A stretch of DNA of 42,513 nucleotides from the IMG/VR virus record IMGVR_UViG_3300023099_000011, positions 1-42,513 of that record. One strand, written 5' to 3'. Positions 1,208-22,070 of the stretch are shown piece after piece (within the stretch, counting starts at the first letter, position 1; every line of letters begins with the position of its first letter). The notes under the pieces were generated by a model that worked only from the letters and a program-made list of their open reading frames with translations, did not search any database and was not told the origin of the DNA. Both the position numbers and the translations under genes were made by a program. This stretch comes from a virus.

Positions 1208-1858
1208 TCACGCGGCGACCACAACCACCCGTGCGGGCGCGCCGGCCACGTTCGTGGTGCCCGCCAGCAGCACCTCCAGGCCTAGCACGGTGACCGCCGC
1301 GCGCTGCACCAGGCGCAACGAACAGCCCGTGGTGGTGCTGGTCACCTTCGTCCACACCTGGTTGCTGGCCGTGGGTGGCTCGGGCTGGATGCTGGGGATC
1401 GCCGCAAAGGCCGACGTGTAGGTGATCGTCACCAGGCCATTGGCGTCGGTCGTGCCCGTGTAGGTGTCGATGCGCTTGGCGTCAACGCCTGCGGGGCCAG
1501 CCGCCCCCGTGGCGCCGGCCGCCCCCGTGGCGCCGGCCGGGCCTGTTGCGCCCGTGGAACCGGCAACGCCCTGCGGGCCTTGAGCGCCAGTCGCACCTGT
1601 CAAGCCTGTTGGTCCTTGCGGACCGGTCAAGCCAATCGGACCTTGCGCACCGACAGCGCCAGTCGCCCCTGTCGCACCGACAGCACCCGTCGCACCGGTC
1701 GATCCCTGCGGCCCGGATGGCCCCGCCACGCCGCGATCGCCCTGTGCTCCTTGGCTACCTACCGGTCCTGTCGCTCCTGCGGCCCCATTCCCGGTCGGCA
1801 GCTCCTTGCGGATGCGCATCAGGATCTTTTTGTAAAACAGGTTCTCGTCGAGGTTCAT
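1208..1858 (-). CDS. collagen-like tail fibre/appendage protein
   Basis: The 216-aa product starts [20 protein letters not shown], followed by about 34 uninterrupted Gly-X-Y triplets ([12 protein letters not shown] and similar), then a C-terminal domain of about 95 residues after GVDAKRID. That domain ([32 protein letters not shown], ends RVVVVAA) looks like the trimerising C-termini of phage fibre proteins. The triplets would form a trimeric collagen-like stalk. The start overlaps the upstream stop as ATGA. It lies well away from the main tail-fibre gene (24269-25732) and next to genes that lead into terminase. Role as a side fibre or head appendage is inferred. Confidence 0.8.
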
Positions 1859-2184
1859 GGCGCATCCAATCCGGCCACCAGGGACCACGCCGAGTCGCCC
1901 ATCCACACGTTGTTCGCCGCCCACGTTGAGGTCTGCCGGACAAAGCGGCCCTTCTGGTCCGGGCCGTAGGTGATCGCGATCTGGTTGCCGTCGGTGTCGT
2001 ACTTCGGTTTGCAGGGCAGCGAGCCGAGGTCGAACATCACCTGGCCGGTGGACTCGGTGATGAGGCCAGCGCCAGCGGCCGGGGCCGTGCGGTCGGCGTA
2101 GGTGCCGTCGGAGAGTCGCACCAGCGCGCGGGCTTTGCCGTCGCCAATGCCGAAAGTGATTTTATCGGGGAGTTCGTCTGCCAT
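1855..2184 (-). CDS. hypothetical protein, likely partner of the collagen-like protein
   Basis: 109 aa, starting [21 protein letters not shown] and ending [11 protein letters not shown]. It is rich in beta-strand-like segments ([25 protein letters not shown]) with no signal peptide or membrane span. The ATGA overlap with the collagen-like gene implies translational coupling, so it may act with that fibre, for example as an attachment or cap protein; this is inference. No strong Shine-Dalgarno precedes the ATG at 2184 (only a GGAGGGTT-like stretch further up in complementary form). Family not recognised. Confidence 0.65.
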
Positions 2185-5433: not shown

Positions 5434-6039
5434 CTACGCCTCGACCCCCATCGCCTCGGCCATTTTCATCAGCTTCTGCGCCAGCGCCACCAGCTCGCGC
5501 GCCGGGGTCCCGGGCGGCACGGCCACGTCGATATGGCGCGTCTTGACGTGCTGGACGTCGGGGTTGTCGGCGGCGCGGCGCCGGGGCGCACGGGAGATTC
5601 CCGGTTTCGCGGGAATCGGCGCGGCGACCACCGGCCCGGGCGCGCTGGCCGGCGCCGCCACGTAGTCGCCGACCGCATCCATGGTGGCCAGGCGCAGCGG
5701 CAGGAGCAGGTCGACCAGCGCGTTGATGGCCGCCGCTGGAGGCAGGGCGCCGACGGTCTTGCCGACGCGGCGCGCGCCGATCTTCTCGAACAGGGCCGCC
5801 GAGCGGTTGATGCGACGCATCACGGTCTGGTAGGCCGGGTCCTCGTGGTTGGCGCATGGCCGGCCGGCGTCGGCGTAGACGGTGCGCAGCTCGCGCCGGG
5901 CGTCGAGATCGGCGCTGCCCAGGGTGTGGAAGACGAACAGGGACACGGCCAGCTCGGCCTGCAGCGCTTTGGACGACAGGGCGAACGCACCGGACAGTGC
6001 CTTGACGCAGGCGGTGAAATCATGGGAGGGGGTTGACAT
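5434..6039 (-). CDS. hypothetical phage protein, 201 aa
   Basis: ATG 6039 (MSTPSHDFTACVKALSG) is set by AAGGAG 7 nt upstream; an in-frame ATG 18 bp earlier lacks one. Residues 1-130 are helical and alanine/leucine-rich (ALSSKALQAELAVSLFVFHTLG). A proline/alanine linker (APASAPGPVVAAPIPAKPG) leads to a basic patch (SRAPRRRAADNP) and a C-terminal helical segment (PARELVALAQKLMKMAEAMG). The two-domain layout with a basic linker could suit a DNA- or host-protein-binding early protein, but no family is recognised. A GC-rich hairpin lies in its leader at 6084-6102. Confidence 0.7.
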   Translation of the reverse strand: MSTPSHDFTACVKALSGAFALSSKALQAELAVSLFVFHTLGSADLDARRELRTVYADAGRPCANHEDPAYQTVMRRINRSAALFEKIGARRVGKTVGALPPAAAINALVDLLLPLRLATMDAVGDYVAAPASAPGPVVAAPIPAKPGISRAPRRRAADNPDVQHVKTRHIDVAVPPGTPARELVALAQKLMKMAEAMGVEA

Positions 6040-6083
6040 GGTGAAACTCCTTTTCAAAAGTGATAAATCGGAGTTCCATCATG

Positions 6084-6102
6084 CGCCGGCGCGGGGCCGG
6101 CG
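6084..6102 (-). repeat. GC hairpin in the leader of the 201-aa gene
   Basis: CGCCGGC (6084-6090), loop GCGGG, GCCGGCG (6096-6102): 7 perfect pairs within the 97-nt gap between two minus-strand genes. On the minus strand it is followed by CATGATGG, not a T-run, so it is not a classic terminator. It could mark an mRNA processing or pausing site. Confidence 0.5.
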
Positions 6103-6136
6103 GTTTGTTGATTGTCAGGTGGGCGGGTGACGGATA

Positions 6137-6346
6137 TCAAGGCCGGGGCGCATTGCCCATCACGCGCCGGCGCGCCGCCTCGTAGTCGAGCGGGCCGTTG
6201 GTGTGGATGCCGGCGCGCAACGCTTCACGGTACACTGCAGCGGTGCCCGCATCCGCCGCCTCCAACAGTTCCAGGCACTTGCGCGGGCGCACCAGCGCCA
6301 GCATGGCGAAGGCGATGAACAGGCCGAATAGTTTAATTCGCATCAT
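6137..6346 (-). CDS. small single-span membrane protein, 69 aa
   Basis: Starts MMRIKLFGLFIAFAMLALV, an N-terminal hydrophobic span of about 17 residues followed by RPRK, so the tail is probably cytoplasmic. The remainder is a soluble helix pair ending RRRVMGNAPRP. AAGGAG lies 7 nt before ATG 6346, inside the overlapping upstream 50-aa gene, so the two are coupled. It belongs to the early leftward transcript and could modify the host membrane; function unknown. Confidence 0.65.
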   Translation of the reverse strand: MMRIKLFGLFIAFAMLALVRPRKCLELLEAADAGTAAVYREALRAGIHTNGPLDYEAARRRVMGNAPRP

Positions 6347-6485
6347 GGTTTTTCTCCTTGGTAGGTGGAACCGGGGTCGGCACGGCAGGGGCGTCCGCCT
6401 TCGGCAAGTCGCTGCGGCGGCAAACCCATCCGGCGCCGCAAAGCGGGCAGGTGGTGCCTTTCGGTGGATTCGGGCATTGCTGCAT
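6333..6485 (-). CDS. 50-aa zinc-ribbon-like mini-protein
   Basis: A short frame from ATG 6485 to TAA 6333-6335. It starts MQQCPNPPKGTTCPLCGAGW, continues VCRRSDLPKAD and ends with a proline-rich tail TPVPPTKEKNHDAN. Cys4, Cys13, Cys16 and Cys22 (C-x8-CPLC-x5-C) could bind one zinc ion. GGAG stands 7 nt upstream of the ATG, and the frame overlaps the next gene's start by 14 bp and supplies that gene's AAGGAG, so translation of both looks organised. Function unknown; small zinc proteins of this type often bind nucleic acid or host proteins. Confidence 0.55.
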   Translation of the reverse strand: MQQCPNPPKGTTCPLCGAGWVCRRSDLPKADAPAVPTPVPPTKEKNHDAN

Positions 6486-6488
6486 GAT

Positions 6489-6722
6489 CTATCTCCAAAG
6501 TAATTTCAAACGCGACGCCTTGACGTCAGGGTGGATGCGGCCGGCGCATATATCGCGCACGGCCTCGGCTCCGAGCAGGGTGCTGTAGCGCTCGACGCAC
6601 TGGGCCATGGACAGCAGCCCATATTCATAATCCCAGCGCACAGCGGCCACCACGCGGGCCGGGGTGGGGTTGCCGGCCGTGCGCGGCGGGATCAGGCGCG
6701 GGATGACGAGCTGGGCGGTCAT
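6489..6722 (-). CDS. hypothetical protein, 77 aa
   Basis: Starts MTAQLVIPRLIPPRTAGNPT and ends VKASRLKLLWR. The middle (ARVVAAVRWDYEYGLLSMA) looks helical, followed by AQCVERYSTLLGAEAVRDIC. It is basic overall and has no membrane span. ATGA overlap with the upstream 310-aa gene and close spacing to the 50-aa gene place it in the early leftward operon. Family not recognised. Confidence 0.65.
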   Translation of the reverse strand: MTAQLVIPRLIPPRTAGNPTPARVVAAVRWDYEYGLLSMAQCVERYSTLLGAEAVRDICAGRIHPDVKASRLKLLWR

Positions 6723-7651
6723 GGCGCTGGACCCACGTCGCGCTCGCTGCCCTGCTGCACGGCGGCCTGAATTTCAGAGTACTGCTCATCGGTTATCGCG
6801 GCAGCAGCACCAAGCACATCTTCCCACGCCCACCCTTCATCATCCATGACTTCCTGCATGGCGCGAGTTACGTGCAGAGGCACCAGCGCGTGCTTGAAGA
6901 CCGCCGCCGCGTCCTGTATCTGCTCCAGTGTCAGCGCGGCATCGGCTGGTGGCTTTGGCTGGTGATGGTACGAGCGGAACAAGAATTCCATCTCTTCTAC
7001 GCAACTTTTTACCAAGCCCTTTGGCTCGCTGAAATAGCTGTCGTTGTGGCTCATGCAAAGCCGCCACTCGTTAAGGCGCATCACTTGTTTTTCAAGCGCA
7101 GCAAGCAACGCTACCGGCTTCGCATCCACTGGCGCGGCATCGGCTGGTGGATGGACTAAGCAGGGCCAGCGCAAACTACCATTTCCACTAGGGCAAGAGC
7201 AGTTTGGGTCTTGGCTGTTGTGGGCGGCGTCGGCTGGTGGCTTTGGCTGTGCTGGCAAAGGGGCGAGAGCGGCGCTAGCCTTGCCGACATAGTGGCGAAG
7301 AGTCGCGGCTTCCTCGGCGTTGCTGTTGAAGCAGTCTTCGTGGCCGGATTCGTCTGCGCCATCGCTGCGCCAGTCCATGTGACCTTGACCGATCAGCCAC
7401 TCGACAATCTGCGCGATCCGCTCATCCAGCGCCGCCCCTTCCTGCTGAATGGATGACTCATTTAAATGGATCGCTGCCAGCTCGGCATTAGCTTCCATTA
7501 ATTTGCGCTGGGTATTGGCCAAATCAATCAATGTTTCCCGCAAATCTTCCTGCTGAATGGCTGGCGCCGCCCACACATCGTCGACCAGCACAAAGCCGTT
7601 CTTCAGCAGCGCCGCCTCGGCCAGCTCCAAGCGCTTGATGATCGGGGTCAC
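6719..7651 (-). CDS. Ea22-like modular early protein, 310 aa
   Basis: GTG start at 7651 in a GTGA overlap with the upstream HTH gene. Residues 1-110 contain a coiled-coil-like helix (LIDLANTQRKLMEANAELAA). The rest is built of modules joined by near-identical linkers: QPKPPADAA twice and HPPADAAPVDAK once. Modules include a Cys-rich patch (DPNCSCPSGNG, WPCLVHP) and a helical region RLNEWRLCMSHNDSYFSEP. This mosaic with a shared linker resembles the lambda Ea22 group, whose function is unknown. Linker repeats at DNA level (6937, 7133, 7224) probably allow module shuffling by recombination. Confidence 0.65.
   Translation of the reverse strand: MTPIIKRLELAEAALLKNGFVLVDDVWAAPAIQQEDLRETLIDLANTQRKLMEANAELAAIHLNESSIQQEGAALDERIAQIVEWLIGQGHMDWRSDGADESGHEDCFNSNAEEAATLRHYVGKASAALAPLPAQPKPPADAAHNSQDPNCSCPSGNGSLRWPCLVHPPADAAPVDAKPVALLAALEKQVMRLNEWRLCMSHNDSYFSEPKGLVKSCVEEMEFLFRSYHHQPKPPADAALTLEQIQDAAAVFKHALVPLHVTRAMQEVMDDEGWAWEDVLGAAAAITDEQYSEIQAAVQQGSERDVGPAP
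6937..7248. repeat. three direct repeats encoding the PPADAA linker
   Basis: A core GCATCGGCTGGTGG or GCGTCGGCTGGTGG recurs at 6939-6952, 7137-7150 and 7227-7240. The first and third extend to GGCTTTGGCTG. In the minus-strand frame each encodes the PPADAA linker of the 310-aa protein. Short identical linkers between unlike modules are a usual substrate for homologous module exchange between phages. Confidence 0.75.
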
Positions 7652-7998
7652 AGCTCACCCCCGACGCCCATCGAGCTGCGCACCTTCGGCGACACCAGGT
7701 CATTGCGCGGGATGCCAAATTGCATTTCGATCTCCTTGGCGCGCGCCAGCGGCACGTAGCCCTGGCGCAGCCACTGGCCCACGGCCTGACGGGTGACGCC
7801 CAGCGAGACGGCCAGCTTGTTCCAGCTGCCGGCCTTTTCGACGGCCTTGTCCACCGCGCTGGTGGCGCGGGGCACTGGTTCGTCGGCGGCGAGCCAGGCT
7901 TTGACGTGGCCAGGGGCGGCGCCGATGGCACGGGCGAACTTCGTGTTGCTGCCGGCATGGGCGATGGCCATCTGCAGGCCGGTTTGTTTCTTGGTCAT
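7648..7998 (-). CDS. tandem YdaS-like helix-turn-helix regulator
   Basis: 116 aa from ATG 7998, with AAGGAG 9 nt upstream. Two helix-turn-helix units follow each other. Residues about 7-40 read TGLQMAIAHAGSNTKFARAI then APGHVKAWLAA. Residues about 58-100 read GSWNKLAVSLGVTRQAVGQW then LRQGYVPLARAKEIEMQFG. Both resemble YdaS/Cro-type domains, which are normally single. It is the first gene leftward of the divergent control region, the usual place of a Cro-like early regulator, and could bind the CAAGTA/TACTTG operators there and at the three internal promoters. That target is inference. Confidence 0.8.
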   Translation of the reverse strand: MTKKQTGLQMAIAHAGSNTKFARAIGAAPGHVKAWLAADEPVPRATSAVDKAVEKAGSWNKLAVSLGVTRQAVGQWLRQGYVPLARAKEIEMQFGIPRNDLVSPKVRSSMGVGGEL

Positions 7999-8045
7999 GG
8001 GTATATCTCCTTGTGAGGTGTACCGCAAGGATAAACCAGACAGCT

Positions 8046-8073
8046 ACTTTACGCAAGTAAAATATATTTGCAA
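8046..8073 (-). promoter_or_regulatory. leftward early promoter
   Basis: On the minus strand, -35 TTGCAA (8073-8068), a 16-bp spacer and -10 TAAAGT (8051-8046) lie 48 bp ahead of the HTH start. The spacer and -10 overlap the inverted repeat TTTACGCAAGTAAA. Prediction by eye; the -10 matches consensus at four of six positions. Confidence 0.5.
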
Positions 8074-8084
8074 GAAAATACTTG
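8048..8084. promoter_or_regulatory. operator pair in the divergent control region
   Basis: Two inverted repeats. O1 is TTTACGCAAGTAAA (8048-8061) with arms TTTAC/GTAAA. O2 is CAAGAAAATACTTG (8071-8084), one base different from the CAAGTAAATACTTG found inside all three internal promoters. They overlap the -35/-10 elements of both divergent promoters, so a bound protein would affect both arms. Confidence 0.6.
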
Positions 8085-12631: not shown

Positions 12632-14955
12632 AAACTCTCTGGCTCGACTTCGAGACCTTCTCCCCCACGCCGATTACCCACGGCACCCACCGCTACGCCG
12701 AGCAGGCCGAGATTCTGCTGTGGGCCTGGGCCATCGACGAAGAACCGGCGCAGGTGTGGGACTGCGCAAACGACCCGGTGGCGCCGGCGCGCCTGATCGC
12801 CGCCGTCAACGATCCGGACGTCGAGATCGTCGCTCACAACAGCGGATTCGATCGCACCGTCATGCGCCACGCGCTGGGCGACTTCTGCCCGTCGGTGCTG
12901 CGCTGGCGCGACACCATGGTCCAGGCGCTGGCCCACGGCCTGCCCGGCGCGCTGGGGACGCTGTGCGAGGTGCTGGGTGTGCCGGCCGACAAGGCGAAGG
13001 ACAAGGCCGGCAAGCAGCTGATACACCTCTTCTGCAAACCGACGCCGTTCCGCTTCCCGCACGCACGCAAGGACTTCGCCACCAAGGCCGATTACGACGC
13101 GGCGAAGCTGGCCGCGAGCGAGGGCTGGGTGGGCCGGGCCACGCGCGCCACGCACCCCGTGCAGTGGGAACAGTTCAAGTCCTACGCCGGCGGCGATATC
13201 GAGGCCATGCGCGAGGTGCGGCGCCGCCTGCCGAAGTGGAACTATCAAGGCGACGAGCTGGCGCTGTGGCATCTCGACCAGAAGATCAACGACCGGGGCG
13301 TCGACATCAATCTGGACCTCGCCCACGGCGCGCTGGCCGCCGTCGACGAGGAACAGGAGATACTGCGCGCGCGCACCCTCGACTTGACCGAGGGCCAGGT
13401 GGAGACCGCCACGCGTGTGGACAAGCTGCTGCTGCATATCCTCGAAGCCTATGGCGTCGATCTGCCGGATATGCAGAAGGCCACCTTGGAGCGGCGCATC
13501 GCCGATCCCGAATTGCCCGAGGGCTTGAAGGAACTGCTGCGCGTGCGCCTGTCCACCGCCACCACCAGCACCAGCAAGTACAAGACGCTGATCAACGGCA
13601 CCAGCAGCGATAGCCGGCTGCGCGGCCTGCTGCAGTTCTGCGGCGCCTCGCGCACCGGGCGCTGGGCCGGCCGGTTATTCCAGCCGCAGAATCTCCCCTC
13701 GCGCGGTCTGCTGCCCGAGCACCAGATCGAGATGGGCATCGAGGCCCTGAAGGACGGCACGGCCGGCCTGCTGTTCGACGACGTGATGCGCTTGACCAGC
13801 AGCGCGATCAGGGGCTGCATCGCGGCGCCGGCCGGCCGCAAGCTGGTGGTGGCCGACTTGTCGAACATCGAGGGCCGCGACCAGGCGTGGCTGGCCGGCG
13901 AGGCGTGGAAGTTGAAAGCATTCGCTGACTTCGACACCGTGCAGGCCGCCGACGGCAAGTGGCTCACCGGCTCGGAATACTTCGCGTTGTGCCGCGCCAA
14001 CCGCGCGCCGGAACTGGCTCTCGACGGCAAGGGCGAGCCGATCCGCGCCGGCCATGACCTCTACAAAATGTCCTACGGCAAGTCATTTAACATCAAGCCG
14101 GAGGACGTCACCAAGGACCAGCGACAGGTGGGCAAGGTGCAGGAGCTGGCGCTGGGCTACGAGGGCGGCGTCGGTGCGTTCGTGACGTTCGCGGCCGGCT
14201 ACGGCATCGACCTGGACGAGCTGGCAGACAAGGCTTCGCGCTTCATACCCGGCGAGGTGTGGGGCCAGGCATCGATCATGCTGGAGTGGCACCGCAGCAA
14301 GGGGCGCGATCCCGCCGCGCAGCTGGGCATGGCCGACAAGACCTGGCTGGTGTGCGAATCGTTCAAGCTGGGCTGGCGCACCGGCCACGCCAACATCAAG
14401 GCGTATTGGAAAGAGGTGGATTCGTGCGTGCGCGAGGCGATCGCCAATCCCGGCACCACCATCCCGTGCGGCAAGGTCAAGGTGCGGCGCGACGGCGCCT
14501 GGCTGCGGATCGTGCTGCCATCCGGGCGCGCACTGTGCTATCCGGGGCCGAAGCTGGAAGCGGAGAAGCGCAAGCGGAAGGACGCCGAACTGGTCGAGAC
14601 GTCGGACATTTTCAACGTCGCCGAGGAAATGTCCACCGGCCGCACCAAGATCACCTACATGGGCGTCAACCAGTACAGCCGCAAGTGGGGCCGGATCGAC
14701 ACGTACGGGGGCAAGCTGTTCGAGAACATTTGCCAGGCCGTGGCGCGCGACGTGATGGCGCACAACATGCCGCTGATCGAGGCGGCCGGCTACGAGATCG
14801 TACTCAGTGTCCACGATGAGCTGGTCTGCGAAACCCCCGACGACCCCCGCTACAACCCCGAGCACCTGGCCGCGCTGCTGTGCGCCCCGCCACCATGGGC
14901 GCCGGACATGCCGCTGGCCGCCGCCGGCTTCGAGTCGTACCGCTACAAGAAATAA
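12628..14955 (+). CDS. family A DNA polymerase with 3'-5' exonuclease
   Basis: 775 aa. The exonuclease domain has LDFETF (Asp7, Glu9), VAHNSGFDR and SYAGGDIEAM (ExoIII-type Tyr/Asp). The polymerase domain has motif A VVADLSNIEGRD (Asp410), a motif-B-like region YKMSYGKSFNI plus QELALGYEGGVGAF, and motif C LSVHDELVCE (Asp730). There is no 5' nuclease domain. It is the replicative polymerase of this phage, working with the SSB on this arm and the primase-helicase on the other. Start ATG 12628 overlaps the upstream stop. Its stop lies directly before promoter-operator copy 1. Confidence 0.95.
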   Translation: MKTLWLDFETFSPTPITHGTHRYAEQAEILLWAWAIDEEPAQVWDCANDPVAPARLIAAVNDPDVEIVAHNSGFDRTVMRHALGDFCPSVLRWRDTMVQALAHGLPGALGTLCEVLGVPADKAKDKAGKQLIHLFCKPTPFRFPHARKDFATKADYDAAKLAASEGWVGRATRATHPVQWEQFKSYAGGDIEAMREVRRRLPKWNYQGDELALWHLDQKINDRGVDINLDLAHGALAAVDEEQEILRARTLDLTEGQVETATRVDKLLLHILEAYGVDLPDMQKATLERRIADPELPEGLKELLRVRLSTATTSTSKYKTLINGTSSDSRLRGLLQFCGASRTGRWAGRLFQPQNLPSRGLLPEHQIEMGIEALKDGTAGLLFDDVMRLTSSAIRGCIAAPAGRKLVVADLSNIEGRDQAWLAGEAWKLKAFADFDTVQAADGKWLTGSEYFALCRANRAPELALDGKGEPIRAGHDLYKMSYGKSFNIKPEDVTKDQRQVGKVQELALGYEGGVGAFVTFAAGYGIDLDELADKASRFIPGEVWGQASIMLEWHRSKGRDPAAQLGMADKTWLVCESFKLGWRTGHANIKAYWKEVDSCVREAIANPGTTIPCGKVKVRRDGAWLRIVLPSGRALCYPGPKLEAEKRKRKDAELVETSDIFNVAEEMSTGRTKITYMGVNQYSRKWGRIDTYGGKLFENICQAVARDVMAHNMPLIEAAGYEIVLSVHDELVCETPDDPRYNPEHLAALLCAPPPWAPDMPLAAAGFESYRYKK

Positions 14956-15011
14956 CTTGCACAAGTAAATACTTGCGTGTATAGTTCTTACATCAGCAGC
15001 GCAAACCGAAC
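14956..15011 (+). repeat. promoter-operator repeat, copy 1
   Basis: 56 bp identical to 16908-16963, covering promoter, operator and leader. The similarity continues, with a few changes, through the ribosome-binding site to the ATG. The first 33 bp also match 19669-19701. The copy starts one base after the polymerase stop codon. Confidence 0.95.
14957..14985 (+). promoter_or_regulatory. sigma70-type promoter with internal operator, copy 1
   Basis: -35 TTGCAC (14957-14962), 17-bp spacer AAGTAAATACTTGCGTG, -10 TATAGT (14980-14985). The perfect inverted repeat CAAGTA-AA-TACTTG (14962-14975) fills the spacer, so a bound repressor would block RNA polymerase. It drives the small-gene cassette starting at 15023. 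Confidence 0.8.
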
Positions 15012-15704: not shown

Positions 15705-16018
15705 AAACCGTTCTCCTCCTCGGCGGCCCGGCCGCCGGCCAGCGCGTCGAAGTCCACGGCAACATGGGCAGCGTCTACTCGGGCGACCTCGACGGCCGCA
15801 TGACCAACACCCTGTACAAAGTAGTCCCGATGTGCTCGCACGGCGAGGTGCACTGGTTCGGCGTGCTCGATGGCGCCGACCCGCTGGCGCTGCTCATTGC
15901 TGGGTATGGCATGAACGTGGTGCCGAAGGCCGAGCGCCACACTGGCACCCTGCACGACCGCAACGGCGACGTGGTATCCGCGCCGGTGCGCGGCGACACC
16001 TACGGAGACCAGTCATGA
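15701..16018 (+). CDS. hypothetical protein, 105 aa
   Basis: Starts MKTVLLLGGPAAGQRVEVHG, continues TLYKVVPMCSHGEVHWFGVL and ends PVRGDTYGDQS. The GGPAAGQ segment resembles a loop but is not a Walker motif (no GK[ST]). The fold looks strand-rich, like small phage proteins of unknown function. Coupled by ATGA on both sides. Confidence 0.65.
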   Translation: MKTVLLLGGPAAGQRVEVHGNMGSVYSGDLDGRMTNTLYKVVPMCSHGEVHWFGVLDGADPLALLIAGYGMNVVPKAERHTGTLHDRNGDVVSAPVRGDTYGDQS

Positions 16019-16215
16019 TCCTCTTTTTCCGAAACTGGCCGGTCGGCCTGTACATCCTGTTCGTTTGGCTTTGGCTCGCGGGGGTGGTGGTCTTCTGGTG
16101 CGTAGAGGACGCATCGCCTGCACCGCCCGCCAAACCCGAAACGCTCACCTGCGTCCGGGTCAAGGAAGTCACCCCGGCCGGAACGATAAACTACCTTTGC
16201 GAGGTGCGGAAATGA
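16015..16215 (+). CDS. single-span membrane protein, 66 aa
   Basis: Starts MILFFRNWPVGLYILFVWLW. Residues about 9-29 form one membrane span (LYILFVWLWLAGVVVFWCV), followed by a proline-rich spacer (SPAPPAKPETL) and a 20-residue tail with two Cys (LTCVRV ... NYLCEV). The basic N-terminus inside and Cys-bearing tail outside would allow a periplasmic disulphide. Part of cassette 1. Function unknown; an envelope-acting early protein is possible. Confidence 0.65.
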   Translation: MILFFRNWPVGLYILFVWLWLAGVVVFWCVEDASPAPPAKPETLTCVRVKEVTPAGTINYLCEVRK

Positions 16216-16738: not shown

Positions 16739-16920
16739 GCGACGCGTGGTTCCATCAGGCGGTGTCGCAACTCGCCCAAGACGATCTCACCAAGGCAAAG
16801 GCGCGCATCGCCGAACTCGAAGCGGCCATCGACAAACTGGCCCAGTGCAAAGGCCGCTACCACACCGAGGCCAATTTCAAGGCGCTGATCGCGGTGCGCA
16901 ATAAAAGCTTGCACAAGTAA
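16735..16920 (+). CDS. hypothetical coiled-coil protein, 61 aa
   Basis: GTG start at 16735 overlaps the VRR-NUC stop. Sequence begins MSDAWFHQAVSQLAQDDLTK with a heptad-like helix (AKARIAELEAAIDKLAQ). Its last codons and stop (SLHK*, 16909-16920) are supplied by promoter-operator copy 2, which suggests that the copy landed in the 3' end of this gene and replaced its natural tail. Confidence 0.65.
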   Translation: MSDAWFHQAVSQLAQDDLTKAKARIAELEAAIDKLAQCKGRYHTEANFKALIAVRNKSLHK

Positions 16921-16963
16921 ATACTTGCGTGTATAGTTCTTACATCAGCAGCGCAAACCGAAC
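16908..16963 (+). repeat. promoter-operator repeat, copy 2
   Basis: 56 bp identical to copy 1 (14956-15011). It overlaps the end of the 61-aa coding frame, providing its TAA stop, and runs to just before the GGAG of the next gene. Confidence 0.95.
16909..16937 (+). promoter_or_regulatory. sigma70-type promoter with internal operator, copy 2
   Basis: -35 TTGCAC (16909-16914), 17-bp spacer, -10 TATAGT (16932-16937), operator CAAGTAAATACTTG (16914-16927). Same architecture and sequence as copy 1; it drives the genes 16975-19662. Confidence 0.8.
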
Positions 16964-18086: not shown

Positions 18087-18265
18087 CCAAAGAGTTTCAG
18101 ATAATGCTGATGGCCTACTGGCTCTCGGAGCCGCGCTACCTGCACTGGGTACAGTACCGTCTGCCGTTGCACCGCGCCTACGCCGTGGTGGCGCACGACC
18201 GTGTGATCACCGGCAAACTGCTATCCGGTGTCCAATCCCTTGGCGAATTGGCGTTCCGCGTATGA
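18080..18265 (+). CDS. hypothetical protein, 61 aa
   Basis: Starts MLTKEFQIMLMAYWLSEPRY and ends SLGELAFRV. Basic and aromatic, with no clear membrane span. Overlaps the NinX gene by 7 bp and the SNF2 helicase start by ATGA, so it is translated with them. Function unknown. Confidence 0.6.
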   Translation: MLTKEFQIMLMAYWLSEPRYLHWVQYRLPLHRAYAVVAHDRVITGKLLSGVQSLGELAFRV

Positions 18266-19662
18266 TCATCGTCCCGAAAAACTTCACCCCTCGCCCCTAC
18301 CAAGGAATCGTCACCGACTTCATCCTCGACACCCCACGGTGCGGGGTCTGGAGTTCCATGGGCACGGGGAAGACCCCCGCCACGCTAAACGCCTTGGACA
18401 CACTGCAGGCGCTCGACGACCGCCCGATCCTGGTCGTCGCACCGCTGCGGGTGGCCACGACCACCTGGCCGGACGAGGTGCGCAAGTGGAACCACCTGCG
18501 CCACCTCACCGTGCTGCCGATCACCGGCAGCGAGAAGGAACGCATGCGCGCGCTCAAGTACGACGCCAATATCCTGACTACAAATTTCGAGCAGCTCCCT
18601 TGGCTAGTAGAATTTTACGGCGAGCGCTGGCCGTTCTCCACGGTGGTGATCGACGAGTCCACCAAGCTCAAGGGCTTCCGGCTGCGCCAAGGAACCCAGC
18701 GGGCCAAGGCCCTCGGCCGGGTGGCGCATACGAAGATCAAGCGCATCGTCGAGCTGACCGGCACGCCGGCGCCGAACGGCCTTGAGGACTTGTGGGGGCA
18801 GGCGTGGTTCCTGGACAAGGGCGCGCGGCTCGGTCGCACCTACGACGACTTCAAGAAACGCTGGTTCCGCAAGAAGTACAGCGGCTTCGGCACCGAGCCG
18901 ATGGACCACGCCCAGGAGCAGATCCAGCGGGCGCTGCGCGACATCTGCGTGACCATCGACGCCAAGGACTGGTTCGACCTGAAAGACCCGATCGTCAACA
19001 ATATCTATGTCGACCTGCCGCCCAAGGCGCGCGCGCTGTATCAGGACATGGAGAAGCGCGCCTTCATGGAGATCGCGGCCATGGGCACCTTGCACGGCAT
19101 CGAGGCGCTGGGCGCCGCGCAGAAGATCGGCAAGCTGCTCCAGCTGTCGAACGGCGCCGCCTATCTGGCACCGGGCAGCAGCGAATGGGCCGAGGTGCAC
19201 GACGCGAAGATCCATGCGCTGGAGGACATCGTCGAGGAAGCGGCCGGCATGCCGGTGTTGGTGTCCATCCAGTTCAAGAGCGACCTCGCGCGCCTGCTGA
19301 AGGCATTCGGCAAGGATGCCATTGCGCTCAACAGCCAGGAGGGCGTGCGGCGCGCGCAGCGCGGCGAGGGCAAGGTGTGGCTGGGCCACCCGGCCAGTAT
19401 GGGCCACGGTGTCGACGGCCTGCAGGAGCACACCAACATCATGGCCTTCTTCGGCCACGACTGGAACCTGGAACAGCGCCTGCAGATCATCGAGCGCATC
19501 GGCCCGACGCGGCAGATGCAGGCCGGGAAGGATCGGCCGATGTTCATTCATAACATCATCGCTCGCGACACGGCGGACAGCATGGTCATCGAACGGGTGG
19601 AGACCAAGCGCTCGGTGCAGGATATCCTGCTCGCGGCGATGAAGGCCAAGGGCTACGCGTAA
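18262..19662 (+). CDS. SNF2-family DNA helicase/translocase
   Basis: 466 aa. Q-like motif TPRPYQ, Walker A MGTGKT (Lys37), motif Ia PLRVATTTW, DExx box VVIDESTKLKG (Asp131/Glu132), motif III ELTGTPAPNGLEDLWGQ. The C-terminal half carries VLVSIQFKSDLARLL, GHPASMGHGVDGLQ and IERIGPTRQMQ as a motif VI, slightly changed from the usual IGRxxQ type. Compact phage SNF2 proteins accompany PolA, VRR-NUC and DUF2800 in replication modules and probably remodel forks or branched DNA. Last gene of cassette 2. Confidence 0.92.
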   Translation: MIIVPKNFTPRPYQGIVTDFILDTPRCGVWSSMGTGKTPATLNALDTLQALDDRPILVVAPLRVATTTWPDEVRKWNHLRHLTVLPITGSEKERMRALKYDANILTTNFEQLPWLVEFYGERWPFSTVVIDESTKLKGFRLRQGTQRAKALGRVAHTKIKRIVELTGTPAPNGLEDLWGQAWFLDKGARLGRTYDDFKKRWFRKKYSGFGTEPMDHAQEQIQRALRDICVTIDAKDWFDLKDPIVNNIYVDLPPKARALYQDMEKRAFMEIAAMGTLHGIEALGAAQKIGKLLQLSNGAAYLAPGSSEWAEVHDAKIHALEDIVEEAAGMPVLVSIQFKSDLARLLKAFGKDAIALNSQEGVRRAQRGEGKVWLGHPASMGHGVDGLQEHTNIMAFFGHDWNLEQRLQIIERIGPTRQMQAGKDRPMFIHNIIARDTADSMVIERVETKRSVQDILLAAMKAKGYA

Positions 19663-19668
19663 AAACAA

Positions 19669-19701
19669 CTTGCACAAGTAAATACTTGCGTGTATAGTTC
19701 T
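19669..19701 (+). repeat. promoter-operator repeat, copy 3
   Basis: 33 bp identical to the start of copies 1 and 2 (CTTGCAC through TATAGTTCT). After this the leader differs, with only ACTCA resembling the other leaders, so copy 3 is older or was truncated at its 3' end. Confidence 0.95.
19670..19698 (+). promoter_or_regulatory. sigma70-type promoter with internal operator, copy 3
   Basis: -35 TTGCAC (19670-19675), 17-bp spacer, -10 TATAGT (19693-19698), operator CAAGTAAATACTTG (19675-19688). It heads the envelope-protein cassette 19745-21598. Confidence 0.8.
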
Positions 19702-19744
19702 ACTCATGGGCTGCGCAACGGGCGCGGCGGAATTGGGGATCACG

Positions 19745-19981
19745 ATGGACTTTGAAACATATCTGAGGTTGGCGGCTATGGCCGGAGGGGTGAGCGGGAT
19801 TGCCGGGCTGGCATGGTCATTTTTCACAAAAGACGGACCCTTTAACGATTTGGGCGCGGTGGCGAGATTTGCCGCAAGCGCCCTATCAATAGCCCCGGCG
19901 GCAGGGGTAATTGGCGCTATGGCGGCTAGTGTCGTGTACGGCGCTATTCGCCTAGGGTACTACGCAGTTACAGGAACCTAA
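19745..19981 (+). CDS. small membrane protein, 78 aa
   Basis: ATG 19745 (MDFETYLRLAAMAGGVSGIA) is chosen because GGGGATC precedes it and because an upstream ATG at 19706 would fall almost at the transcription start. Two or three hydrophobic stretches: AAMAGGVSGIAGLAWSFF, AASALSIAPAAGVIGAMAAS and VVYGAIRLGYYAV, separated by KDGPFNDLG. First gene of cassette 3. It could be a holin-like, exclusion or other membrane-acting protein; no family recognised. Confidence 0.65.
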   Translation: MDFETYLRLAAMAGGVSGIAGLAWSFFTKDGPFNDLGAVARFAASALSIAPAAGVIGAMAASVVYGAIRLGYYAVTGT

Positions 19982-19989
19982 TCAACCCC

Positions 19990-20005
19990 GCTCGCTACGG
20001 CGGGC
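19990..20005 (+). repeat. intergenic GC hairpin
   Basis: GCTCGC, loop TACG, GCGGGC (one T-G pair), again after TAATCAACCC just as at 17280-17297. It lies between the stop of the membrane-protein gene and the start of the lipoprotein gene. Confidence 0.55.
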
Positions 20006-20021
20006 ATCACCTGGACGCATC

Positions 20022-20867
20022 ATGAAAACCATACTCGCAATCGCCATCGCTGCCGCGCTCACCGCATGCGGCGGTATGCAAGACGCCCACGCCGAGCGCG
20101 TACGGCAAATCTACCGGCCGTCGCTGCCGGCGGTCTCGATCACCGCGCCGGATGGTCGGACCACGATCAGTACTTGCGTGCATGACGCGGGGGCCATCTG
20201 CTCGCTGGTGCGCAACGGCGTCGAGTACATCAACGACACCGACCACGGTCGCCAGTTGCAAAGCGCGGTGTCCTACGACGGCAAGGGCGAGAACGACAAC
20301 CCGACCGAGGCCGGCGCGTCGCACCTGACCAACGGCTACAACCCATCGCCGTCGAGCAGCCGCTTGGTGGAATCGAGCGGCGCGGGCAACGTCATCAGCA
20401 CCTTTAGCCAAATGGCCTACTGGAACCCGGTCGCCGGCCAGCGCACCAGCGACACCTATTTCGAAAAGCGCGTCCAGTTCATCACGCCGACCGTGATCCG
20501 CTACGACGTGGCCTATGTGGTGCCGAAGAAGCAGGCCGCCACGTTCGAGACGCTCACCGCATACATGCCGGCCGCCTTCAGCGAGTTCTACACCGCCGAC
20601 GGCGCCTGGCTGTCGGACGGCCCGGGTGAGCAGGAGAAGCCGGTCATCCTGGCCACGCCCGACCACCAGCACGCGATGGGCATCTACTCGCCCCGGCCTG
20701 TAGGCTACGGCCGGTGGCGCTTCCCCGCCGATGGGGTGGTGAAGTGGAACGCGGTGGTGCGCGCGACCAACGTTGAAGGCATTTACCGATTCACCCTGTA
20801 CGTTGTGGTGGGCACGCTGGACAGTGTGCGCGCCGACATCGCCAAACTTTCGCAACAGCCACTTTAA
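20022..20867 (+). CDS. phage-encoded putative lipoprotein, 281 aa
   Basis: Starts MKTILAIAIAAALTACGGMQ, a signal peptide with lipobox LTAC (Cys16) and Gly at +2, predicting an outer-membrane lipoprotein. An alternative type I site follows AHA at about residue 24. The mature part is strand-rich: LPAVSITAPDGRTTISTCV, EYINDTDHGRQLQSAVSYDG, NPTEAGASHLTNGYNPS, and it ends LSQQPL. The D-x-GRQ ... NPTEAG pattern reminds me of carbohydrate-active or sugar-binding proteins, without firm assignment. Phage lipoproteins commonly block superinfection by masking receptors; that role is inferred from location and sorting signal. Confidence 0.7.
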   Translation: MKTILAIAIAAALTACGGMQDAHAERVRQIYRPSLPAVSITAPDGRTTISTCVHDAGAICSLVRNGVEYINDTDHGRQLQSAVSYDGKGENDNPTEAGASHLTNGYNPSPSSSRLVESSGAGNVISTFSQMAYWNPVAGQRTSDTYFEKRVQFITPTVIRYDVAYVVPKKQAATFETLTAYMPAAFSEFYTADGAWLSDGPGEQEKPVILATPDHQHAMGIYSPRPVGYGRWRFPADGVVKWNAVVRATNVEGIYRFTLYVVVGTLDSVRADIAKLSQQPL

Positions 20868-20877
20868 GGAGAGCATC

Positions 20878-21126
20878 ATGAACAAACCAATCCCCACCTT
20901 GAACGATCCATGGGTCCGCTGGGCGCGTCTGATCGGTGCCCTGTTCGTCGCTGCCGTGGTGCTGGCGCTGTTCTCGGGCTGCAACGGCAAGAATGCTTTT
21001 CGTCACATGATCCTGGTGGATGCCGAGTCCGGGTGCAAATACGTGGGCTACGTGGAAGACGGCGCCCTGAGCAACGCAAGCCTCAAACCCGTGGTTGGGG
21101 TAGACGGCAAGCAGGTATGCAAATGA
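20878..21126 (+). CDS. membrane-anchored or lipoprotein-like small protein, 82 aa
   Basis: Starts MNKPIPTLNDPWVRWARLIG, then a hydrophobic span ALFVAAVVLALFSGC. LFSGC resembles a lipobox but has Phe at -3, so either lipidation or simple membrane anchoring is possible. The periplasmic part (NAFRHMILVDAESGCKYVGY) has two further Cys that could pair. AAGGAGA precedes the ATG. Member of the envelope cassette; function unknown. Confidence 0.65.
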   Translation: MNKPIPTLNDPWVRWARLIGALFVAAVVLALFSGCNGKNAFRHMILVDAESGCKYVGYVEDGALSNASLKPVVGVDGKQVCK

Positions 21127-21260
21127 AGCGCTGGCACACCCCGCACTGGCGAAGCGTTAAACGGGCTGCTGTGCGTGCCGAGCGCGATCTGGCGGTGCAG
21201 GGCTGGTTGGTCGCTTTTATCGCCGTGGCGGCCCTGCTCGCCAGGCTGGCGTCACTCTAA
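21123..21260 (+). CDS. 45-aa single-span membrane protein
   Basis: Starts MKRWHTPHWRSVKRAAVRAE, a very basic N-terminal half, followed by one span GWLVAFIAVAALLARL. Positive-inside rule places the N-terminus in the cytoplasm. ATGA overlap with the gene before. Function unknown. Confidence 0.55.
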   Translation: MKRWHTPHWRSVKRAAVRAERDLAVQGWLVAFIAVAALLARLASL

Positions 21261-21271
21261 AGGAGAACACT

Positions 21272-21598
21272 ATGTTTCATACTCTGTTTGTGGCGGCGCT
21301 AGTCGCCTTGGCCGCTCCCGCTCAAGCGCAGACTTTCACCGACAGCAACGGGGCCGCGTTCAGCACCAGCGATGCGCTGATGATCGAGGCGGTGCCGCAG
21401 TACGTCCACATCATCTATGCCGATGGGCGCGACGCCTATTACGAGGACGCCGGCGGCAAGCTTCTGCCGGTGATCGTTGCGCTAGACCGAGGGTTTACTA
21501 AGGTTGGCAAACGGTGGGTGAAACAGGCCGGATTGCGGGGCGTCCAGGCTTGCTCGGCGTACTGCTCCACTTGCTGCGTACCTAAAGCGAAATCCTAG
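21272..21598 (+). CDS. secreted cysteine-rich protein, 108 aa
   Basis: Type I signal peptide MFHTLFVAALVALAAPAQA with cleavage before QTFTDSNG. The mature 89 residues are strand-rich (YVHIIYADGRDAYYEDAGGK) and end with a Cys cluster ACSAYCSTCCVPK, likely disulphide-bonded in the periplasm. AAGGAG before the ATG. Last plus-strand gene; it meets the spanin gene tail to tail with a single base between the stops. Function unknown; periplasmic, so it could act on the envelope or on incoming phage. Confidence 0.65.
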   Translation: MFHTLFVAALVALAAPAQAQTFTDSNGAAFSTSDALMIEAVPQYVHIIYADGRDAYYEDAGGKLLPVIVALDRGFTKVGKRWVKQAGLRGVQACSAYCSTCCVPKAKS

Positions 21599-21599
21599 C

Positions 21600-22070
21600 C
21601 TACTTCAACGAGTCGTAGGCGCCGTAGCATGCGGCGAGGGCGGCGCGCTGTTCGTCGGCGCGTTGAGCGATCCCGACAAGAACAGTTGCATCTGATCGAT
21701 ATAGCTCGGCCCCAGTGGCACCCGTGCAAGCGGGGGCGGCCTGGGGCATTCCACTTGCGCCGGCGGGCTGGCGGTCCGGACGGTTCCGCACGCCGGCAAG
21801 AGCAGCAGCGCCAGCAGCGCGCACGCGGTTGATTTCATTTTGTTTCTCCTGTTCGACTTGGCCGAGGCGATCGGCCCATCCTCGTTCGGTGGCACGCGCG
21901 GCCAGCTGGTCGGCGGCGTAGATCTCCGCGCGCTGGCGCTCGACGTCCGCCGAGGCCTTCTCGATGCGCGCGATCTTGGCGGACATGATGGTGTGGTCGA
22001 GCGCCGCGCCGCCGGCAGCACCAAGCAGCAGGCCGCCCACGACGAAGGGCCAGGTGGGAATCAGGCTCAT
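21600..22070 (-). CDS. Rz-like inner-membrane spanin (i-spanin)
   Basis: 156 aa from ATG 22070 (MSLIPTWPFVVGGLLLGAAG), giving one N-terminal membrane anchor and a long periplasmic helix (IARIEKASADVERQRAEIYA and onward) typical of Rz/DUF2514 spanins. The C-terminal part contains YRSDATVLVGIAQRADEQRA. The Rz1 frame (21605-21838) is nested in it out of frame, the classic spanin layout. Start overlaps the endolysin stop as ATGA. It disrupts the outer membrane together with Rz1. Confidence 0.88.
   Translation of the reverse strand: MSLIPTWPFVVGGLLLGAAGGAALDHTIMSAKIARIEKASADVERQRAEIYAADQLAARATERGWADRLGQVEQEKQNEINRVRAAGAAALAGVRNRPDRQPAGASGMPQAAPACTGATGAELYRSDATVLVGIAQRADEQRAALAACYGAYDSLK
21605..21838 (-). 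CDS. Rz1-like outer-membrane lipoprotein (o-spanin), nested in Rz
   Basis: 77 aa in another frame inside the Rz gene. Starts MKSTACALLALLLLPACGTV, with lipobox LPAC, then a proline-rich stretch (CPRPPPLARVPLG) as in Rz1 proteins, and ends HATAPTTR. AGGAGAAACAAA lies just upstream of the ATG. Entirely embedded, ending 5 bp before the end of the Rz frame. It should pair with the i-spanin across the periplasm at lysis. Confidence 0.88.
   Translation of the reverse strand: MKSTACALLALLLLPACGTVRTASPPAQVECPRPPPLARVPLGPSYIDQMQLFLSGSLNAPTNSAPPSPHATAPTTR

Follow-up and report, generated by a model that had tools for sequence, protein, structure and literature searches.

A promoter-led slot of exchangeable envelope-directed genes in a group of phages, and its lipoprotein with a predicted carbohydrate-enzyme-like fold

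Results

Five envelope-directed genes between a helicase and the lysis operon

In the window (the whole 42,513-nt stretch of viral DNA that was analysed), rightward early genes on the + strand (8.1-21.6 kb) and leftward late genes on the - strand meet at 21.6 kb. The cassette described here lies at the end of the rightward arm. Its genes, its borders and the regulatory features associated with it are as follows.

7648..8028, - strand: 126-aa Cro/YdaS-like protein (Pfam YdaS_toxin 5.6e-16, P22_Cro 4.4e-12; PHROG transcriptional repressor 1.5e-11)
8071..8084, no strand assigned: operator-like site CAAGAAAATACTTG, a near copy of the palindrome, in the divergent control region beside the Cro/YdaS-like gene
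14955..14985, + strand: promoter/operator copy 1, identical to copy 3
16907..16937, + strand: promoter/operator copy 2, one mismatch
18262..19662, + strand: SNF2-type helicase, the conserved upstream border of the slot
19668..19698, + strand: promoter/operator copy 3 (-35 TTGCAC, 17 nt with the palindrome CAAGTA-AA-TACTTG, -10 TATAGT)
19745..19981, + strand: 78-aa membrane protein, the variable first gene of the slot (from hydropathy and ORF calls)
20022..20867, + strand: 281-aa lipoprotein with an LTAC lipobox and Gly at +2
20878..21126, + strand: 82-aa TM/lipoprotein-like protein with FSGC after a hydrophobic stretch and a DUF6440-like C-terminal tail
21123..21260, + strand: 45-aa single-TM protein with a basic N-terminus
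21272..21598, + strand: 108-aa secreted Cys-rich protein with a signal peptide and CSAYCSTCC
21600..22070, - strand: Rz-like spanin, end of the convergent lysis operon and downstream border of the slot (PHROG Rz-like spanin 6.1e-9)

All five open reading frames that the initial annotation had placed at 19745-21598 on the + strand are present there. The start of the 78-aa gene is uncertain and its ribosome-binding site is weak, and an alternative 91-aa form with a start at 19706 is possible. The start of the 45-aa ORF overlaps the stop of the 82-aa ORF via ATGA. The five products had been described as membrane, lipo- or secreted proteins, and hydropathy bears this out: envelope-directed proteins are encoded by 5 of the 5 cassette genes, compared with 2 of the 18 other early genes on the + strand (p=0.0006) and 12 of the 51 genes in the remainder of the window (p=0.0016), where the scoring is a simple hydropathy rule with a gene set and thresholds of our own choosing rather than a trained predictor of TM segments or signal peptides. 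None of the five proteins matched a PADLOC model at E<=1.

Two other genes of the window deserve mention. A 66-aa TM protein at 16015-16215 (+ strand), which has the conserved tail LTCVRVKEVTPAGTINYLCEVRK at its end and a relative after promoter copy 1 in the related phage L031, is a second envelope-directed early gene, located outside the slot. The leftward arm encodes a collagen-like protein with Gly-X-Y repeats at 1208-1924 (- strand).

The cassette was further said to stand under its own operator copy, and the third copy does precede the five genes. The palindromic operator sits between the -35 and -10 elements, and the combined promoter/operator occurs three times in the window and zero times in 100 shuffles. 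The 126-aa Cro/YdaS-like protein is the probable regulator of these operators. It has two apparent tandem helix-turn-helix units (residues about 17-63 and 58-111, corresponding to two stretches matched by Pfam YdaS/P22_Cro and PHROG), and thus a single chain might recognize the two palindrome halves together.

Lifestyle and host

Profiles for tyrosine integrase (PF00589), serine recombinase (PF00239) and the S24 repressor (PF00717) gave no hit in nine records of the group (the window and eight relatives) while the controls were positive; these records are metagenomic, some are incomplete, and a repressor of another type is possible. Absence of an integrase is no proof of a lytic lifestyle. A prophage moron or lysogenic conversion was considered and set aside given the lack of an integrase or repressor hit, and the operator that the slot promoter shares with other early promoters also counts against a moron expressed in the lysogen. 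Since the promoter appears to be early and operator-controlled and no integration gene was detected, the cassette is probably expressed in lytic infection and not in a lysogen. Among named phages, the helicase and polymerase are closest to those of Bordetella phage BPP-1 (55%) and the portal to that of Paraburkholderia phage IPK (46%), which suggests that the host belongs to the Burkholderiales.

The promoter and borders of the slot are kept while its contents are swapped

The slot was compared with that of five records in which the 281-aa protein is 92-96% identical and of four that have the promoter without the 281-aa gene (L031/L043, L034, L035 and L032). All nine relatives have a slot under the same promoter, bounded by the SNF2 helicase on one side and the convergent lysis genes on the other, and in every related phage read the promoter stands ahead of it. 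The helicase border has 77-91% nucleotide identity in the relatives (about 90% is typical, and 77% is found in L035), and the lysis border has about 95% in L002-L006 and 69-73% in L034 and L035. The contents in between are swapped, and over ten phages 34 of the 37 ORFs counted in the slot encode envelope-directed proteins.

The first gene of the slot encodes the 78-aa TM protein in the window, a 71-aa soluble protein in L003 and L005, and a 120/125-aa TM protein of phrog_3054 in L004, L006 and L043 (family assignment from L004 and L043); L002 has none. The main secreted protein or lipoprotein gene is the 281-aa gene in six phages, and it is replaced by genes for lipoproteins of 137 or 140 aa with an LAAC lipobox in L043 and L034, a 139-aa secreted protein in L035 and a 73-aa protein with LAGC in L032. 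The 82-aa gene is reduced to a 38-aa TM stub in L002, L003 and L005. Counterparts of the 45-aa protein, each of 41-47 aa with a single TM segment, occur in eight of the nine related slots read. Wide recurrence is limited to the promoter and the two small TM proteins.

The 78-aa and 108-aa proteins were found in none of the other slots read. No relatives of the 78-aa protein were detected in the viral contigs searched. The 108-aa protein has relatives (83-87% identical) in four other virus records, two of them of 58-59 kb, and its predicted structure (pTM 0.56) gave no meaningful fold match. Just upstream of the helicase, L004 has an HNH homing-endonuclease-like ORF (L004:5682-6158) that is absent from the window.

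The initial annotation had proposed a dedicated system acting at the envelope. An envelope-directed module with an early-type promoter is supported, with the promoter kept, the contents swapped and the replacements again envelope-directed, but the module is not a fixed system of five genes.

The C-terminal tail of the window's 82-aa protein resembles that of its counterpart in L035. Against the Pfam cut-off of 26.5 bits for DUF6440 (PF20037), the L035 protein passes with 30.6 bits, and L006 (23.8) and the window copy (13.1) score below it. The DUF6440-like tail also occurs in other related phages and is clearest in L035.

The 281-aa lipoprotein belongs to a family common to bacteria and viruses

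Scans of Pfam, NCBIfam, PADLOC and PHROG returned nothing significant for the 281-aa protein, and a tblastn search of 50,697 phage records and 72,556 plasmid records found no match to it or to a bacterial homologue. A first scan of genome contigs, queried with near-identical phage sequences, was unsuccessful. The successful scans used an alignment that included a hypothetical consensus modelled on similar bacterial proteins; this consensus influenced only which search peptides were chosen, all hits were verified by tblastn with the window protein as query, and the alignments made afterwards contain real sequences only.

Relatives with 35-40% identity were recovered from six bacterial genomes (three Bacteroidota, one Polaromonas, an Acidobacteriota MAG and a Deltaproteobacteria/Myxococcota MAG). 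Outside the phage group, the viral records L018, L048 (165 kb) and L049/L050 also yielded relatives, and the family occurs in at least three other virus lineages. Members were few in broad genome samples (3/398, 1/395 and 2/297, with the seed genome itself included in every count). Most have a signal peptide or lipobox, and in each of the group's six phages the LTAC lipobox occupies residues 13-16. The family has no model in Pfam, and NCBIfam contains none that matches the window protein. On these sequence comparisons the 281-aa protein is a member of an uncharacterised family common to bacteria and viruses and not an orphan. The earlier statement that none of the five proteins is of a recognised family therefore needs revision, both for this protein, whose wider family has a carbohydrate-enzyme-like predicted fold, and for the 82-aa protein with its DUF6440-like tail.

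Over eleven bacterial and viral sequences 24 positions are invariant, including E68, D74, R77, E90, N93, P94, E96, K149, E176, Y181, K241 and N243 (window numbering). The invariant residues place the window protein in the family, whose motifs are DHGR, GE..NPTE and KWN. Pairwise dN/dS of the 281-aa gene among the six phages is about 0.06-0.21, and the gene is under strong purifying selection. L048 and the window group share a compact form that lacks a CG-containing insert, as well as a cysteine pair (C52/C60), and they group together at 100/99 support, a placement to be read with care given the long branch of L048. From these three features there seems to be a virus-specific branch of the family.

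Several members have features of their own. The L048 member (about 5962-6879) is secreted and shares its derived cysteine pair with the window group. The secreted member of L049 (L049:1208-2182) and L050 lies next to an HNH-like gene and to one for a very large, structural-looking protein of 979 aa. In both L018 and L049 the family member occupies a genomic place other than the slot. The Polaromonas member has a GSCFA protein as its neighbor, and the Mucilaginibacter copy (L012:5953-6899) is apparently frame-disrupted, in two pieces with one internal stop. In L027 and L028 (genomes G215 and G190), proteins of about 515 aa combine the family domain with an N-terminal PG_binding_1-like stretch, which was set aside as evidence because it scores below the cut-off, and a thymidine kinase gene lies near them.

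The predicted fold is a galactose-mutarotase-like super-sandwich

An AlphaFold2 model of the 281-aa protein, made from a 12-row alignment, had a pLDDT of 76.7 and a pTM of 0.77 and was poorest at the signal region and residues 91-110. The fold is predicted to be a galactose-mutarotase-like super-sandwich of two large antiparallel beta-sheets. Remote homology had been proposed as a check, and Foldseek against solved structures returned GH174 fucanase (8jd7/9k1g, E=3.1e-8), the P19 protein of chlorovirus PBCV-1 (8h2i, 2.7e-7) and galactose mutarotase (1l7k, 2e-6), with further matches to the YidC periplasmic domain and heparinase III/HepC. Similarity extends over many members of the super-sandwich class (E 3e-8 to 1e-5) and is moderate (TMq 0.4-0.63). 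Among predicted viral structures, chlorovirus proteins matched with E down to 5e-15 at about 20% identity. Hemagglutinin matches in a profile search (E 0.08-0.2) and a match to G1100 (14 bits) were taken as chance.

Sequence profiles, used independently of structure, also gave P19 as the best PDB chain (E=6.2e-5, 3.1e-7 and 4.6e-6), and the match at 3.1e-7 is colinear and covers nearly the whole domain (positions 31-292 against 68-342). P19 is an arch-like beta-sandwich with rod-like, ligand-like density in a trench and Dali similarity to polysaccharide lyases, and the authors of that study suggest a lyase role (PMC9617893). The window protein resembles P19 in this architecture (TMq 0.56-0.61), and P19 is proposed to act on polysaccharide. 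However, P19, which has an N-terminal hinge, is a minor capsid 'finger protein' from a eukaryotic virus and keeps the DHGR, GE..NPTE and KWN motifs only in part, whereas the window protein has a signal peptide, a lipobox and an early-type promoter. No strong match to a tail or virion protein of phages was found, although such a match had been named beforehand as grounds for rejecting the envelope system; the nearest solved sequence relative is nevertheless a virion protein, that of a giant algal virus.

The GH174 endo-1,3-fucanases (Fun174A; 8jd7 and 9k1g) are the best fold matches, with TMq 0.60-0.63, but identity is 10-13%, their substrate, sulfated fucan, is not expected for this host, and no GH174 chain appeared in the profile searches of PDB chains at E<=10. 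Residues D119, E120 and E218 have been reported for Fun174A (PMC11943901). Similarly, the galactose mutarotase-like superfamily (GalM, heparinase III and the YidC periplasmic domain) shares the super-sandwich fold with the window protein but has no match at the sequence level, and Pfam gives no hit.

Discussion

What might a phage gain from an exchangeable set of envelope-directed proteins? Our preferred explanation, to which we assign a probability of about 0.45, is that the 281-aa protein is an early, outer-membrane-anchored, glycan-directed protein that alters the surface of the infected cell. On this view the region from the early helicase to the convergent lysis genes is an accessory slot with its own operator-controlled copy of the early promoter, and the envelope-directed proteins it encodes are exchangeable and probably produced at an early stage of lytic infection. 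Gly at the +2 position directs lipoproteins to the outer membrane under the established Lol rule, and judging from this residue, the signal peptide and the lipobox, the Sec and Lpp/Lol pathways would place the 281-aa lipoprotein there. Given its predicted super-sandwich fold and the kept invariant acidic and polar residues, the most likely activity of the domain is to bind or cleave a host envelope glycan (LPS, capsule/EPS or a glycan of the periplasm). The simplest assumption about the advantage of a changed cell surface is that later phages cannot adsorb or inject, and superinfection exclusion by the cassette, which had been put forward from the start as an example beside receptor masking, is plausible. 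Progeny may also be less likely to stick to debris once the surface has changed. The small TM and DUF6440-like proteins would act as membrane-anchored accessories.

Some observations argue against parts of this explanation. Some proteins with a galactose-mutarotase-like fold do not have glycans as their target, and with the YidC periplasmic domain among the matches the fold alone is no proof of glycan activity; the TM-scores are also moderate. The 281-aa protein is strongly conserved, unlike an exclusion factor that evolves fast, and no receptor-binding gene adjoins its gene. The family members of L018 and L049, moreover, lie outside the slot position. A surface-modifying enzyme or lectin would account for a conserved putative ligand site and the swapping of whole genes more readily than would a rapidly evolving receptor plug. 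A more specific version, which we consider doubtful, is that an outer-membrane-anchored, glycan-cleaving enzyme made early inside the infected cell removes or alters the host receptor glycan. This would amount to lytic conversion by an enzyme rather than by jamming, and the enzyme would represent a new carbohydrate-active family.

The main rival is that the 281-aa lipoprotein jams a receptor in the manner of Llp of phage T5, a lipoprotein made early that mediates superinfection exclusion (PMC9586334); we regard this as possible, if tentative. Besides that precedent, the early operator-controlled promoter, the lipobox and the presence, at this place in other phages, of unrelated lipoproteins (137, 140 and 73 aa) instead of the 281-aa one are consistent with jamming. 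Llp, Cor and TP-J34 Ltp are likewise phage-encoded lipoproteins with the lipobox signal found here, and Llp is made early. These proteins, which act by receptor jamming, are however small (281 aa is far larger than Llp) and have no sequence match to the 281-aa protein, and the llp gene adjoins the receptor-binding gene, whereas the 281-aa gene lies between the helicase and the lysis operon. The strong purifying selection also speaks against jamming, as do the invariant polar residues, which recur in bacterial homologues for which blocking phages would serve no evident purpose. It is less probable, and in our view unlikely, that the cassette aids lysis or release, with its proteins loosening the envelope or cutting surface polysaccharide so that progeny escape. 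Such a role would agree with the carbohydrate-enzyme fold, with the position of the slot tail to tail with the lysis operon, beside the Rz/Rz1, endolysin and holin genes, and with the L018 homologue, found a few kb after an endolysin and a Clp protease-like gene. Yet the cassette is on the opposite strand under an early-type promoter rather than in the late operon, and the L048 and L049/L050 homologues were not seen beside lysis genes.

That the slot holds neutral or generic cargo, with small hydrophobic ORFs piling up at the end of the early operon and having no common function, is very unlikely. The high turnover of the 78-aa, 71-aa, 120-aa and 108-aa genes and the shortness of several ORFs would be expected of such cargo, but a dN/dS of about 0.1 on the 281-aa gene, the recurrence of the 45-aa TM protein and the envelope-directed nature of the replacements would not. 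Finally, one could imagine that virions contain the 281-aa protein, or carry it attached by its lipid, and that it acts on the host surface at entry. The one sequence relative with a solved structure, P19, belongs to the minor capsid proteins, but the signal peptide and lipobox, the early-type promoter and a location outside the structural gene block make this highly improbable.

Early phage exclusion lipoproteins are already known. An exclusion-type lipoprotein on this fold and a slot with swapped contents would be new, as neither was found described in the libraries and literature searched. For this group of phages the slot is a defined genomic address for envelope-acting genes, with a fixed promoter, fixed borders and exchangeable cargo, and synteny at the slot offers a way to collect further exclusion or surface-modifying proteins. 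The 281-aa protein also draws attention to an uncharacterised family with a predicted carbohydrate-enzyme fold that includes secreted bacterial proteins, members from at least four virus lineages and, remotely, a chlorovirus capsid protein. If the 281-aa protein is indeed a glycan-cleaving enzyme, a new carbohydrate-active family would span bacteria and several phage lineages and extend, at a distance, to giant algal viruses. The activity of one member, once solved, would bear on all members of the family, including the chlorovirus capsid protein.
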